Positions 3,066 through 12,324 of a stretch of DNA of 64,000 nt are shown in pieces. Position numbers and translations under genes: made by a program. Below the pieces are notes generated by a model. That model did no database searches. It was not told where the DNA came from and saw only the letters and a list, made by a program, of their open reading frames with translations. The DNA lies in NCBI GenBank assembly GCA_030949945.1, contig JAUZRZ010000080.1, forward strand, positions 1 through 64,000, read 5' to 3'. The stretch is from Sulfurimonas sp. (GTDB taxonomy: Bacteria > Campylobacterota > Campylobacteria > Campylobacterales > Sulfurimonadaceae). Positions within the stretch are counted from its first letter, which is position 1, and each line of letters begins with the position of its first letter.

Positions 3066-5303
3066 TTACAGCTCTAAGAGTACTGTATCACGCTGTGTCA
3101 CTTCAAATTTCTACAAGCACCTTCAAATGCAAGACTCGCCTACTATAGTACACTTATGTTTTAGCACGAGTCACTGCAGTATAAATGAGCTTAGTATTGT
3201 GCATGATAAAATGTGTAAAACTCATAGGAATAACAACTATATCATACTCCATACCTTGAACTTTGTGGATAGTTAGAGCATAGAGAGCATAAGATGGACT
3301 TTTAATTTCATCATACTCATAAACCACAACCACATCTTCATTTGGGTAAAAATACGAACAACTGTTCATCATCCTCATCTATCTTAAAAGAAGACCACTC
3401 ATACCGTTAAAGATTCTTCTTTGATTAGCATCCTCACCTAGTTTAAAACCACTCCCCACTCCAAGATGTCATATTTTCATTTTTGGTGTGTACGACCTTA
3501 TCCATCAAGCGAAACTCTAAACCACCGCGTTTAACACACTTGCTCGGATTTGGGTTAAAGTACTCTTGTAAAACCTTGTTAAGATTGGTACTGCCAAGCA
3601 GACCACCTTTCATAGGAGTGATAACCTGAAAATAATTAAGATACTCTTTTATCTGTTTATTTTTCAAACGATATCTAGCTTTTTTGAGTGAGTCAAGCAC
3701 TCTATGTACTATCTCTATGATGATTTGTTGTGAGTTTTCATCTCTAAGATTTTTCAACTCATCTGAGGAGAGTTGATTTTTAAGTGCATAGTAGTTCAGC
3801 TATCGTAATATCTACAAACTCAAAGTCTTCATACTTCTCTCTATAGGCAGGAACAACACCCTTGCGTATATCATTGGCTATAAGTGTAATGGCTTGATCT
3901 TCACTCTGTCTATAAATACGAGTTAGTTTTACAGTAGGGGCAAGGGCTAAAGTAAGTACATCGCTAAGTACATTCCCAGCCCCGATAGGAGGAAGTTGTG
4001 CATCATCTCCTACTATAATTAAGATAGCCTTAGAAGATATTTTTCCTATAAGTCTAGCAAAAAGTGAAGAGTTTATCATAGATGCCTCATCAATAAGCAC
4101 TACACTATAGGGAAATTTATCGCTATTTTCATGCTTGATAAGCAGTGACTGTATGGTTGCTGATTCATAGCCCGTTGTATCACTAATTCTCTGAGCAGCT
4201 ATACCACTTAAGGCACAAGTCATTATCTCTTTTTTATCATATTTTGTGTTGATTAACTCTAAGATAGTTTTACTTGTAGTACTCTTTCCTGTTCCTGCAT
4301 AACCCACTAAAAAAAGAAGCATAGCTCCTTTGTTTATCTTCTCAACTGCCTCTTTTTGTTGCTCACCGAGTTTAAGCGAAGAGTCAGCTAGAAACTCATC
4401 TATATTTTTCACAAAACCACCACTACTGCGTTTAGACCTTGCTCTAAACTCATCATACAAGTACTTCTCAGCATCATAGAGTTTAGCAGGAGAGACTCTA
4501 TCATTTTTCATAATGACTATGCTACCCTCAGCAACTCTCTCAACTAAAGCAGCCTCATAAAGATGCTCTTTTTGCGAGAACATAAGGAGTTCATCTAAAC
4601 CACTAAAGAGTATCTCTTTTGCGATGCAGGAGTTTCCTTGTGCTTCACAATAGTTTAAAAGAACATAATCCATAGCAGAGCTAATCCGACCCTCATCCTC
4701 TCTATCAATTCCCATTTTCAAAGCAAGTTCATCTGCGCGTTTAAAACCGATAGAGTTTATATGTGTAAGGATGTAAGGATTGTTTTTTATCTTTGTGCAA
4801 GGTTCATCTACATCTTTCATAGCCCCTGCAATAGTCGTAAGAAGTGCGAGGGAGACATCATAAGGAGATAAAAATTCACCGAGACGACGCATTGAACGAA
4901 ACTGTTTCCAAGAAGCTTGAATTTTTTAAGTCGTTTCTCTTTTATGCCTTTAAACTCTAAAAGCCTCTCAATATCATTATCTAAAATATCAATTAAACCC
5001 TCTTGCCCAAACTTCTCAATAAGCTCAGCTGTAAGTTTTTTTGTAAAACCTTTTATGATTTTATTTAAAAAGAAAAAGAGTTCGTTTTGGTTGACTTTAA
5101 GTGTCTCAAACTTAAAAGTTTTACCATATTTTTTATGCTCTTCCCAAAAACCAGTAAGTGTAATAGCCGAATCTTTTATACTCTCAATATCACTCTCAAA
5201 GTAAGACCCACTAACCTTCTCCCCGACTTTTAAGTTTTGCTATAAAAAAACCCTCATCTTCAAAAAGGATTCTATCTATTTGACCGATGAGTGTTGTGTT
5301 CAA
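3066..5303 (-). CDS. RecD2-like SF1 DNA helicase, with frameshifts
   Basis: A TTG start at 5303 opens an N-terminal domain (IGQIDRILFEDEGFFIAKLK). After a frameshift near 5215 it continues through helix-hairpin-helix-like sequence, and after another near 4890 into the helicase core. The core holds Walker A GYAGTGKS (about 4290), DEAS-type LIDEAS (about 4090), GDDAQLPPIG (about 3990) and the C-terminal TIHKVQGMEYD and YTAVTRAKT segments (about 3160-3270). This is the domain order of RecD2, the 5'-3' helicase found in genomes without a partner RecBC. Total length of about 745 residues fits. At least four indels are required. The conserved motifs are intact, so sequence error is likelier than decay. 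Confidence 0.8.
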
Positions 5304-5309
5304 GATTAA

Positions 5310-6060
5310 CTACTTATTTAAGATGATATTTTTAACTATATCCCAGTTTTCTTTATACTCAATTACTCGACTCAAGTTTACATTTTTACACTCTTCATCA
5401 CTCAGTGTATCTACCCACTCCATTGGTATTATGTAACATAACCCAACTTGTTTATCTACAGCAACATATATGTCACAATCTTGACTTGTAATTCGTTGCC
5501 CTATATTACTTTCATGATGATGGTCAATACCCTTTCCACCCCTGTCCCTATCTTTAAAGGAGATAATATTACCGTGTACTTATCCCTTTGATTTGCACTC
5601 TTAATAAAATATTATTATAATCAATTATTGCATCATACCTACTACTTCTCACATCCACACTACTGCAATTAAATCCTGCAAGAATTGCCCTTGCAACAAA
5701 AATAAATTCTGCACTATCACCTGCATTAGCAGTCATTACACCACTATTTATATTATTGATATTTACTGTAAAACCATTTGTCATTGCTATGTATAATGAT
5801 TTCTCAATAATTTTTTTCAAATCTGTCTTTATAAATTTAAACTTACTTCTTAACACATCTGTAGTTAGTAACTCTTCTATCTTTTGAATATTAAGTTCGG
5901 AAAGTTGATTTAAATCAATAATACTTGCAATATCATAAAAAAATCGAGTAGTATAAAGTTTCTTCAACTCTGTCTCTTTCATATTGTGTAGCAATGCTAT
6001 CTCTTTTATAGCACTCTTTTTATAGTGCTTGTCTTTAAGAGCTTGTACTAATGCTTCCAT
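5310..6060 (-). CDS. PD-(D/E)XK endonuclease, probable restriction enzyme, frameshifted
   Basis: The ATG at 6058-6060 opens a helical N-terminus (about 110 residues), then AEFIFVARAILAGFN, SSRYDAIIDYNN and LLRVQIKG. Asp and Q-x-K in this arrangement form a PD-(D/E)XK nuclease core of the kind annotated as group I-intron-associated or small restriction endonucleases. A frameshift near 5580 leads to SFKDRDRGGKGIDHHHE, then ITSQDCDIYVAVDKQVGLCYIIPMEWVDTLS, and a stop at 5310. The gene overlaps the end of the adjacent C5-methyltransferase by about 26 bases on the same strand, which strongly suggests a type II restriction-modification pair. The recognition sequence cannot be read from the protein. 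Confidence 0.7.
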
Positions 6061-7043
6061 CAAGTGCCTTTTTAATCTCTAATGCAATTTTTTCTATAAC
6101 AGTAACAGTAACAGAGTTTCCCAGCTTGTTTATACCTGTGCGATATTGCCAAATCATCTGGAAAGACAAAGTTTTTATCAAAACCCTGAAACTTCACACA
6201 CTCATTTGGCGTTAATTTTCTAATACCTCTTATCATCTTTAATAATGGGGACATTATGCCCTCCTGTACCCATATTAGCCGTTAGAGTTGGACAAACATT
6301 ATTTTTATTTTCTCGAACATATTGTCTTCGCCACTGATAAACAGTATCTTTACTTGTTATATCATCTTTAATTTTTTCATATAATGGTTTTCCATTATAA
6401 TAAAAAGAATCAGATACATCAGTATCTAAAAACTCATGAATAGTTAATTTTAGCTTCTCTTTTGGCGGAAATTTAAAGTCAATAGTCTTGTCCAAAAAGG
6501 CAACAATATAAATTCTTTCTCTATTTTGTGGTATTCCATAATCTTTTGTATTTAAGATTTGAGAAAACTCTGTATCCTAGCTCTTCTAAAGTTTGCTTGA
6601 CGACCTTAAATGTATTGCCTTTATCATGCCCAACAAATCCTTTAACATTTTCTAAAAATAAAACTTTTGGTTTATGATATTTAGCTATTCGAGCTACATC
6701 AAAAAAAAGTGTACCTCTTGTGTCATCAAACCCTTTTCTATGTCCTGCAATACTAAATGCTTGACAAGGAAAACCAGCTAAAATAATATCATGTTTAGGT
6801 ATCTCTTTTTCATCAATTAATGTTATATCACCGTGGGGCATTTCATTATAGTTTTTATAATAAGTTTTTTGTGCATTTTTATCTATTTCTGAAGAAAGAA
6901 CTATCTTCAGAGCTGTTTTTAAATACTCTTTGAAAAACCAGCACACGGATACCACCAATTCCAGCAAATAGATCAATAATATTATAGCGCTAGTAGCAGT
7001 CAGAGTCTGTATCTCTGGTATTGTGATTCATAATAACTGTCAT
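6035..7043 (-). CDS. DNA (cytosine-5) methyltransferase, frameshifted
   Basis: Joined frames give all the key C5-methyltransferase motifs. Motif I is IIDLFAGIGGIR (about 6950-6985), motif IV is GFPCQAFSIAG with the catalytic Cys (about 6765), motif VI is ENVKGF (about 6640), motif VIII is CPTLTANMGTGGHNVP (about 6250-6295), motif IX begins RKLTPNECVKFQGF (about 6190) and motif X contains QAG-NSV (about 6120). The target-recognition region lies between VIII and IX and is short. The product transfers methyl groups from SAM to cytosine C5 and would protect host DNA from the overlapping nuclease gene downstream. Frameshifts occur near 6940, 6550, 6235 and 6122. The 7043 start is a best guess, because an in-frame stop follows before motif I. 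Confidence 0.85.
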
Positions 7044-8407: not shown

Positions 8408-9463
8408 CTATGCCTCGAAAATTTTTAAGGTCTCATATGCAGTATTTCGTACTGCTGGTATCTCATCTATATCACGGATAAGCTGTACCATTTCCTCTTT
8501 TGCCATTGCATAAGCTGCACCTGCAGAACTTACTACATTCTCTTCCATCATAGTTGAGCCTAAGTCATTTGCACCAAAACGCAGTGCCATCTGTCCGATG
8601 TAAGGTCCTTGTGTTACCCATGAACTCTGGATATTTGGCACATTATCAAGATAAAGTCGTGCAACTGCAAGTAAACGCAGGTAACGGTTAGAAGATGGTT
8701 TTTCCATATCTGGAATTTTTTCTAAAAGGGCTGTATTTTTTCCCTGAAAACTCCACATGATAAAAGCACGAAAACCACCTGTTTCATCTTGAAGTGAACG
8801 AATCATATCAAAGTGCTTGATAATATCCTCATCACTCTCAACTGTACCATACATCATAGTAGCCGTTGACATAATGTCTAGCTTATGTGCTTGTCTATGA
8901 ACATCTACCCATACCTCTGCATCTATCTTTTTAGGTGCAATTATATCGCGTACTCTGTCTGAAAGTATTTCTGCACCCGCCCCAGGAATGGAAGCTAGTC
9001 CTTTTACCTTTAGACGTGATAAAACTTCTTGTATAGTGATACGAGAAATTTTAGCGATAAAATCTAGTTCTATAGAAGAAAAACCGTGAATCGTAATACT
9101 TGGATATTTCGTATGAATATGTTCTACCAAATCCTCATACCACTCTATCTTTAACTTAGGATGCACTCCCCCTTGAAAAAGTATCTGTGTCCCACCAATC
9201 TCTAAAAGTTCATCTATTTTTTGATCTATTTCATCAAATGTAAGAACATAAGCATCTGCATCTTTTTCATGTCTATAAAAAGCACAAAACTTACAATCAA
9301 CCCAACAGATATTTGTGTAATTGATATTTCTATCTATTACAAAAGTTGTTATACCCTTTGGATGCAACTCTTTTTTTCTTTGTGAAGCTAAGCGACCTAG
9401 CTCTTTTAAGTCAGCATTTTGAATTAAATCTAATGCCTCTTCTTTTGTTAATCTTTTGTACAT
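8408..9463 (-). CDS. mqnC: Cyclic dehypoxanthine futalosine synthase (menaquinone pathway)
   Basis: This 351-residue radical SAM enzyme has the C-x3-C-x2-C cluster motif at residues about 54-61 (NICWVDCKFCAFYRH), then GGTQILFQGGVHP and a C-terminal ANDLGSTMMEENVVSSAGA segment typical of MqnC. It cyclises dehypoxanthine futalosine in the futalosine route to menaquinone, the quinone of anaerobic and microaerobic respiration in Campylobacterota. The gene is intact and sits between the cytochrome gene upstream and the M16 protein downstream, all on the minus strand with almost no spacing to the latter. MqnE is the closest alternative, but the length and C-terminal signature favour MqnC. Confidence 0.92.
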   Translation of the reverse strand: MYKRLTKEEALDLIQNADLKELGRLASQRKKELHPKGITTFVIDRNINYTNICWVDCKFCAFYRHEKDADAYVLTFDEIDQKIDELLEIGGTQILFQGGVHPKLKIEWYEDLVEHIHTKYPSITIHGFSSIELDFIAKISRITIQEVLSRLKVKGLASIPGAGAEILSDRVRDIIAPKKIDAEVWVDVHRQAHKLDIMSTATMMYGTVESDEDIIKHFDMIRSLQDETGGFRAFIMWSFQGKNTALLEKIPDMEKPSSNRYLRLLAVARLYLDNVPNIQSSWVTQGPYIGQMALRFGANDLGSTMMEENVVSSAGAAYAMAKEEMVQLIRDIDEIPAVRNTAYETLKIFEA

Positions 9464-9499: not shown

Positions 9500-11920
9500 C
9501 TATTTCCATCCTCTATTTCTGGGGTTCATCGGTTTTGTCTTAATAAAAAGAGTATATACTAGATATATAAATACTAGTATAATCAACATTCCACCTATAA
9601 TTTGTGTATTAGCACCAATATTTAAAATTTTATTTAAAATGTTTTTATGCTCTTTATTGTCTATCTCTATCTCTGCCATCTCCGCAATATGAGTCATAGC
9701 ACTCACACCTAAACTTCCCTCAGGTATGTCTATGTGACAAGAGATACAAACGCCACGACGATCTAGTTTTGCTCTTTGTTCTTTATCAAGCGCTTGAGAG
9801 AGTTTAAAGTGATGTCCTACTGTCATAACCTGTGTTCCATTTTCATCAACAAACTGTGAGTAGTCATACTTCAAATTTGGAATGGCTGGTATCTGCTCAT
9901 CTGTTTTTCTTGGCAAGACTTTTCTATCTGCACTCATAAGATCTACAATAGTTGTCTTAGTCCAATCAGCACTACTCCCAATACCCAGTCCTAAAGCTTT
10001 ATCTGAAACATGGCATGACTCACAATTACGTGCTTCTTTTTGAATAGTATGAGGCTGAACAGGTGACATATCTAAGGCATTTTGCCCCTCTTCCCCCGCC
10101 CCTTCAACATTTTTTACTTTAAATATATGGTTTTGTAAAAGAGCTTTTCCATCTTCGCCAATAACCGTAATGGTAGTCTGACAACCAGGTATAACAGGAG
10201 TAATTCGCCCCTCTCCATTTTGTGCTAAAGCAGGGTCTTCCCAACGTAAGAAGGAACGAGTCTCTGTAACTTTACCAGGGATAAGATACTTTTTAAGGTC
10301 ACGCATCCCGCCAGTTGTTCCATGAATATCTTGGTCATGAGAAGCTTTTAAATAATCAACATTTGATTTTCCACCGCTATAGTCTATCTTTACATGACAG
10401 CCATAACACTGCGGTGCCCATGTTGCATGACAAGTGTAACACTCTAACTCTTCTGTATGTGCCGTTACAACATCCATCGCTATAAGTGCTTTTTTGGAGA
10501 GGTGTTTTTCCTCTTTGAGGAGTTTAAGTGGTTTTAACTCTATATCTTTTCCAGAGCTCAGGTGCATAATGATTTTATTGCCCTTCTTAATAGCTTTTGG
10601 AAGTGGATTTCCTCGTGCTGTTAGAATAAACCCGTCACCCTTATCTTTAGGAACGAAACCTGTTTAAGATACTCAGCTAAATCTTGTGTAACACCACGAG
10701 GTGTACCTTTTTTTCTCTCCTTAGAGAACTCATCAGAGTAACCAATAGGCAACTCCCATGGATAAGCCTTAGTTGTACCATGACAATCTTGACACTCAAT
10801 CTCAACAGCTGCTAAGTTTGCTCCATCTAAGAAACCATCACCATGCAAGTCATTTGAAGTGTGACAATCTTGACACAACATCCCTTTTTGATAGTGAATA
10901 TCCTCTTTCATATGCAAGTAGCGTTTTGTGTGAAGTTTAGGTTGTCCGTTTCCCTCTGCATCAAAAGTAGCATTATATGCAGTCTCCATCAATCCTTGAT
11001 AAGATACACCTATGCGTTTACCACGGTTGTGACAAGTTGAGCATGTCTCAACAGGAACACCAGAGTACTCAACATCGTGAACAGTTACCTTCACTTTACG
11101 AGAAGATTGTATCTGATGTGAGAGCATATGTCCTGGGGATTTTTTATCTATAGTTTGGTCATTTCCCTCATAAAAACCTTCATTTGAGTAATGGAACATG
11201 ACACGATGCACAGCCAATACCACGAAAATCACCCCGTTTTGAGCGACCTTTACTTCCAGTATGACAACGCAGACACTCTTGTCTGAGATAAGTATAAACC
11301 GCTAAAGAGGGGTCAGCAGTTACCTCTTTTACAGAGGGGGCAGCTGGAAGTTCTTGCGTCTCACTTGGAAATGCTTGTGGTTCCATCTTTGAGAGTTTTT
11401 GCATATACTCCCTATAAGTTTTAGTCCCTGAACGCGACATTGGGTCACGAGGATTATGCGTTTTATAGTTCGCGTTTGTATGTTTATAACCCTCTTTAGC
11501 ACCAAAAGACCACAAAGCCCCTTGAATTTTTCCTTGTTCACTCATCATAAGAGAGTTCATCTGATTTGCTACTTGAACAGGGTGACAGGTACCACAAGTG
11601 TTCTCATTTATCCACGAACTCGCAGGTGCTGGATAGTACTCTTTTGGTCCAGGATTATCTAAAAAGTATTTTATCGTTCCCCTATGTGCCTTGCTTTTAT
11701 GTCTCGTAGCAGGGTTTACCCCCGTGACAGACTATACAACTATTTTCAGCATAACCCGCCTTTTTTGCACGCTCGGCGATAGCCTTACTCATAAGAGAAC
11801 TCTCTTGACGAATATGCTCTATACCACTGTGACAATTAAGACAGTTATTTTTTTCGTATAATCAATATCACCAAAAAGTGAAACTGAAAACGCAAGTGCT
11901 AAAAATAGTAGCTGGTACAT
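9500..11920 (-). CDS. Membrane-anchored cytochrome c with twelve CXXCH motifs, frameshifted
   Basis: The start at 11920 (MYQLLFLALAFSVSLFGDID) gives a signal peptide. Joining frames yields about 805 residues. I count twelve CXXCH heme sites: CLNCH, CIVCH, CGTCH, CLRCH, CASCH, CSTCH, CQDCH twice, CYTCH, CYGCH, CESCH and CISCH, spread from about 11843 to 9745. A hydrophobic helix near 9545-9610, just before the basic C-terminus, anchors it in the inner membrane with the hemes in the periplasm. Multiheme proteins of this layout pass electrons between the quinone pool and periplasmic or outer partners. The actual substrate is unknown. Indels occur near 11850, 11720, 11205 and 10640. The neighbour mqnC makes the quinone. 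I cannot assign it to a named enzyme such as an octaheme reductase. Confidence 0.8.
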
Positions 11921-11925
11921 CTTTT

Positions 11926-12324
11926 TTACTTCGCTTTACTTATAGCATCCAAAACACCATTTATAAACTTCGGAGACTGCTCCGTTCCAAAAGCTTTTGT
12001 AATTTCAACTGCTTCGTTAATAACAACAGCAGAATCAAGTTCACCAAAAAGTATCTCATATGCTGCTAAACGCAGAGTAGCTCGCTCAATACTTCCAAGT
12101 CTCTTAAAATCCCAATCTTTTAAATGTGAAATAATCGCACTATCACAAGCTTCAAGATTACTCATAACACCATCATACAGGTCAAGTGCAAAGTCTTTTT
12201 GTTTGTTACGGATTTTTTTCTCTTCTAGTATCTCATCTGTATGCTCAGCCGTGTTTCCATTTCCTAAATCAAAAGCATATAAAAGGCTTACAACAGCCAT
12301 ACGAGCATGATGACGAGTCGCCAT
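11926..12324 (-). CDS. nusB: Transcription antitermination factor NusB
   Basis: This 132-residue all-helical protein starts [22 protein letters not shown], with the Arg-rich RNA-binding N-terminus of NusB. It ends VVINEAVEITKAFGTEQSPKFINGVLDAI, the most conserved part of the family. NusB binds boxA RNA with S10 during rRNA antitermination. Its start codon overlaps the last base of ribH, so ribH and nusB are translationally linked, the same pairing seen in many bacteria. The gene ends 6 bases before the cytochrome start. Confidence 0.95.
   Translation of the reverse strand: MATRHHARMAVVSLLYAFDLGNGNTAEHTDEILEEKKIRNKQKDFALDLYDGVMSNLEACDSAIISHLKDWDFKRLGSIERATLRLAAYEILFGELDSAVVINEAVEITKAFGTEQSPKFINGVLDAISKAK

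Follow-up and report, generated by a model that had tools for sequence, protein, structure and literature searches.

A conserved, ExtM-related twelve-heme cytochrome c of Sulfurimonas and other Campylobacterota, and a series of heme losses at its locus

A gene for a conserved, uncharacterised multiheme cytochrome of about 800 amino acids, which is related to ExtM and belongs to a Campylobacterota family, was found on the minus strand of the window, a 64,000-nucleotide stretch of a Sulfurimonas sp. genome (contig JAUZRZ010000080.1 of assembly GCA_030949945.1). Within the genus, the same chromosomal site holds 12-, 10- and 7-heme forms of the protein. We tentatively propose that it acts as a periplasmic electron wire tethered to the inner membrane, in which heme 12 would make the membrane contact and heme 4, heme 10 and Cys580 would form a detachable outlet. 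A probability of roughly 0.4 was assigned to this reading.

Translation of all three minus frames placed the ATG of the gene at position 11920 and its stop codon at 9500, with the twelve CXXCH motifs distributed across the three frames by single-base indels. A signal peptide without a lipobox Cys, MYQLLFLALAFSVSLFG, was recognized by eye in the translation (11867–11920, minus strand, as are all features of the gene), and hydropathy indicated a single C-terminal transmembrane helix (9530–9598). The twelve motifs, the signal peptide and the single C-terminal helix of the original prediction were thus confirmed. The heme-binding motifs are those of heme 1 (CLNCH, 11829–11843), heme 2 (CIVCH, 11724–11738), heme 3 (CGTCH, 11582–11596), heme 4 (CLRCH, 11261–11275), heme 5 (CASCH, 11198–11212), heme 6 (CSTCH, 11029–11043), heme 7 (CQDCH, 10861–10875), heme 8 (CQDCH, 10780–10794), heme 9 (CYTCH, 10427–10441), heme 10 (CYGCH, 10394–10408), heme 11 (CESCH, 10010–10024) and heme 12 (CISCH, 9734–9748), the last being the heme site closest to the membrane helix in the sequence. 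Four further residues, numbered as in L005, were located from the translation: His330 (10930–10932), Cys580 (10181–10183), His704 (9809–9811) and His758 (9647–9649), of which the last is invariant and the likely distal ligand of heme 12. A chance origin of the motifs is excluded, because relatives, in which the gene is intact, hold the same twelve in one open reading frame encoding 785–812 amino acids.

Relatives were detected in Sulfurimonas, Sulfurovum, Sulfurospirillum and other Campylobacterota by one scan of a species-genome collection; a scan of viral contigs gave none. A family member was present in 35 of 298 genomes evenly sampled from the phylum and in 80 of 135 Sulfurimonas genomes (44 of the 79 of good quality), so that the distribution is patchy, within the genus too. 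Nearly every complete open reading frame fetched from the relatives has exactly 12 CXXCH motifs. The alignment consisted of 55 complete rows, which were chosen for having 12 such motifs; these homologues shared 63–93% identity with the first row, and column identity averaged 73%. Nine candidate distal His residues were invariant in the 55 rows, several more were nearly invariant, and Cys580 was the sole invariant Cys outside the CXXCH motifs (55/55). Matches on Sphingobium plasmids were rejected, since the similarity spans only about 70–190 residues and the genes are part of different multiheme clusters. Among the Sulfurimonas genomes, co-occurrence with NapA showed no association; a second, weaker match to the NapA model seemed to track the gene and was set aside because it adjoins nitrate-assimilation-like genes. 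No account of the 12-heme protein emerged from the openly licensed papers on Sulfurimonas and multiheme cytochromes that were searched.

In Sulfurimonas genomes, the site between nusB and mqnC is occupied by the 12-heme protein (A-type), by a 10-heme protein of about 680 amino acids (E-type) or about 609 amino acids (F-type), by a 7-heme protein of 423–447 amino acids (D-type), or, at L152, by a remnant only. The membrane tail, heme 12, His744 and His758 are retained in all of the anchored 12-, 10- and 7-heme forms. The E- and F-types both lack hemes 4 and 10 together with His330, His704 and Cys580. The D-type has likewise lost heme 10, His330 and Cys580 but retains His704, and its first motif corresponds ambiguously to heme 1 or heme 4, as two alignments place it differently. 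Two soluble types occur in other families: the C-type, which lacks the helix, hemes 10 and 12, His330, His758 and Cys580 and retains heme 4 and His704, and the divergent B-type, which has 12 hemes, heme 12 among them, and no membrane helix. In a tree of kdsA, ribH and mqnC, the E-type branched next to a 12-heme relative (support 0.985). The F- and D-types grouped together (0.947) and fell within a different group that also has 12-heme members (0.925); the E and F/D losses are therefore independent. With the C-type counted, at least three losses of heme 10 took place, all of them accompanied by loss of His330 and Cys580; heme 4 and His704 were lost as well in two lineages, E and F.

The nearest NCBIfam model was that of ExtM (NF040943), which matched with E values of 3e-67 to 7e-68 and 227–229 bits against a cut-off of 800. 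The best match covered residues 199–647 of L005, that is, hemes 4–11 (E 3.3e-67), and the region of hemes 1–3 lay outside it. According to PMC5877670, ExtM is a cytochrome with 12 hemes encoded in the Geobacter extHIJKLMNOPQS cluster; loss of the porin-like extI of that cluster impairs selenite and tellurite reduction, and no activity is reported for ExtM itself. The window protein resembles ExtM of Geobacter sulfurreducens (GSU2935) in having 12 hemes, but the model spans 599 positions as against about 800 residues, and the window protein, unlike ExtM, carries a C-terminal anchor. In addition, the ext genes (extHIJKL and extNOPQS) are absent around the window gene, whose neighbors are kdsA, ribH, nusB, mqnC and a protease gene. 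Judged from its sequence, the window protein is thus related to ExtM, yet it is not ExtM by the curated cut-off. In the Pfam comparison, residues 214–385 exceeded the curated cut-off of the MtrC/MtrF domain II/IV model (PF22113; 40.2 versus 30), and similarity to c7-type cytochromes was also seen. MtrC and MtrF differ from the window protein in that the latter has no lipobox, and so by sequence is not an outer-membrane lipoprotein, and has a C-terminal helix instead. The OmcA/MtrC family model TIGR03507 gave no match with the window type and weak, sub-threshold matches with the B- and C-types.

The octaheme and pentaheme enzymes are likewise multiheme c-type cytochromes, but the window protein has twelve hemes. 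Neither the CX15CH site of MccA nor the CXXCK site of NrfA is possible in the window family, because only one conserved Cys is present besides the 12 CXXCH motifs. The resemblance to MccA in a motif comparison was weak (E 0.07), and the matched stretches were not colinear. Sequence searches of the PDB, HAO, ONR and OTR included, returned no significant match, and AlphaFold gave pLDDT values of 49.8 with the 55 rows and 42.3 for a 225-residue fragment, both of low confidence. The view that the protein matches no common octaheme or pentaheme enzyme therefore held, and no characterised multiheme enzyme was matched over its full length. In the quinol dehydrogenases NapC, NrfH and CymA, the helix is N-terminal and the hemes number about four. 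Their likeness to the window protein would be functional only, as membrane-anchored multiheme modules proposed to take electrons from quinol; the helix of the window protein is C-terminal, its N-terminus is signal-peptide-like, it has twelve hemes, and the NrfH model did not match the window type.

Taken together with the heme-loss series, these comparisons are best accommodated by a periplasmic dodecaheme c-type cytochrome that would be tethered to the inner membrane through its C-terminal helix. Hemes 1–3, 5–9, 11 and 12 would constitute the wire; heme 12, next to the membrane, would be where electrons enter or leave the wire, the likeliest course being from menaquinol outward. Heme 4, heme 10, His330, His704 and Cys580 would form the detachable branch, with His330 presumably a ligand of heme 10 and His704 of heme 4; through this branch, electrons may be passed to a particular substrate or partner in the periplasm. 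The invariant and nearly invariant candidate distal His residues fit a mostly bis-His electron-transfer protein, and the Pfam likeness to MtrC/MtrF and c7-type electron-transfer proteins also supports a role as a wire. The retention of the helix, heme 12, His744 and His758 in the anchored forms, and the absence of the helix, heme 12 and His758 from the soluble C-type, support this reading, as do the independent co-losses of heme 10, His330 and Cys580 and the loss of heme 4 with His704 in the E- and F-types. On the other hand, the B-type keeps heme 12 without a helix, so this heme does not strictly go with a membrane attachment. The lone helix may be only an anchor, and the co-loss could stem from the deletion of mutually packed loops and need not mark a functional site; both points count against the wire, as do the retained His704 and the ambiguous first heme of the D-type.

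The cytochrome gene begins 5 nt after an upstream gene that we take to be nusB-like (11926–12324, minus strand) and ends 36 nt before a radical SAM gene that we take to be mqnC-like (8408–9463, minus strand); both neighbors are conserved in the genus. Gene order (kdsA-ribH-nusB-X-mqnC-protease) hardly varies in Sulfurimonas and a number of its close relatives, whereas in other families the neighbors of the cytochrome gene differ and are mostly unrelated housekeeping genes. Hence the adjacency to a menaquinone synthesis gene pointed out in the original prediction is real, but it supports a quinol link only poorly because the arrangement is lineage-specific; a functional meaning of the adjacency was rejected on this ground. 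No conserved redox partner gene accompanied the anchored type in the loci examined, which fits a self-contained module. By eye, a small DUF302-like gene was often seen directly after the cytochrome gene in several lineages (L003, L050, L052, L071, L148 and L150), and a 12-heme gene lay near norC/norB-like genes in a single locus (L072) and near nitrate/nitrite-assimilation-like genes in another (L061). DUF302-like, DoxX-like and norCB-like neighbors occurred in few loci only and were not used as evidence.

Alternatively, the protein could itself be a terminal oxidoreductase, in which heme 10 and Cys580, perhaps with His330, would act catalytically on a small substrate in the periplasm, which may be a compound of sulfur, selenium or nitrogen. 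We regard this alternative as doubtful. Cys580, which vanishes with heme 10, is invariant in all B-type rows as well as in the 55 aligned rows. Moreover, the B-type genes lie in regulated clusters: in most of six loci (L092, L093, L094, L095, L109 and L153) they adjoin thioredoxin-like genes and a two-component system (response regulator/histidine kinase), with a CcsBA-type assembly gene in one locus and a flavocytochrome c sulfide dehydrogenase flavoprotein gene in another. However, the conserved His residues suffice for nearly all of the hemes, and Cys580 may be structural. Nor is a positive association with FccB seen in the genus: FccB was present in 29 of the 80 Sulfurimonas genomes with the cytochrome gene versus 31 of the 55 without it, a weak negative association (p 0.02, with no multiple-test correction and phylogeny ignored). 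Rather unlikely, too, is the more far-reaching idea that heme 10 and Cys580 make up a catalytic site of a new kind, and that the protein is a self-contained dodecaheme oxidoreductase of Campylobacterota tethered to the membrane. Lineages that discarded the site would then have reused the remaining wire, giving the 12-to-10-to-7 deletion series at one site.

That the protein forms the inner segment of a route for extracellular electron transfer, donating to outer-membrane or surface cytochromes and ultimately to an acceptor such as Mn(IV) oxide, appears quite improbable. The distant homology to ExtM and to MtrC/MtrF-like domains is in its favor, and oxidation of sulfide with Mn(IV) oxide by a Sulfurimonas has been reported (cited in PMC11748539). 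The source genome also encodes a lipoprotein-like multiheme cytochrome next to apparent [NiFe] hydrogenase genes. In the loci examined, however, neither a porin gene nor one for a surface cytochrome adjoined the 12-heme gene. A search of 135 genomes of the genus for MtrB/PioB-type porins yielded none, but it matched no control genome either and so does not establish absence. The lipoprotein-like gene (L160, contig C57, 4131–5988) is in two frame-broken pieces with 5 and 2 CXXCH motifs, just downstream of the hydrogenase-like subunit genes, and its product could be a surface cytochrome linked to H2 oxidation. A further uncharacterised multiheme cytochrome of 736 amino acids with five CXXCH motifs is encoded elsewhere in this genome (L161, contig C63, 3755–5965).

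It is very unlikely that the protein supplies the cytochrome c component of a bc-type or molybdoenzyme complex, as distant relatives appear to do. In some genomes of family f3, distant 12-heme (about 600 amino acids) and 10-heme (about 500 amino acids) relatives are encoded in one ext-like operon (L139, 5128–13931; L140, L141, L143 and L155), which by eye also contains Mo-enzyme-like, FeS and NrfD-like genes and sometimes Rieske-like and cytochrome b-like genes too. These f3 homologues, however, are divergent from the window type (E around 1e-16 to 1e-26), and the window type had no such conserved neighbor set in the loci examined and has its own anchor.

Alignment of the cytochrome gene with those of close relatives (84–87% DNA identity) revealed single-base indels at about 11850, 11718, 11192 and 10660, so the advice that the frame be corrected was sound. 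Conserved genes at 3069–6976 of the window are likewise split over several frames in comparison with relatives, and kdsA, ribH, nusB and mqnC are intact in the same window. In a search of the genus, the other copies of the cytochrome gene read open, except for one decayed remnant. The frame breaks are likely assembly errors, because nearby genes are similarly broken and the copies of relatives are open. A recent pseudogene in place of a mis-assembled intact gene is most improbable: four indels do fall inside one gene and another genome (L152) has a decayed remnant at the same locus, but other conserved genes of the window are broken likewise and the two longest pieces are still 92–94% identical to the protein of the nearest relative. 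In relatives, the genes that are split at 3069–6976 encode a 745-amino-acid product, a DNA methyltransferase and a 259-amino-acid product; the assembly seems rich in single-base indels around this region.

Sulfur oxidisers of the genus Sulfurimonas and its relatives are widespread at vents and in redoxclines. A large conserved cytochrome in 80 of 135 genomes of the genus represents a gap in the map of their electron transport. What is new is the occurrence of 12-, 10- and 7-heme versions or a remnant at one locus, some relatives having shed two to five hemes. This natural series provides ready-made deletion variants, in which a retained core of wire and anchor would be set apart from a disposable branch, and it points to Cys580, His330 and His704 as a testable site.
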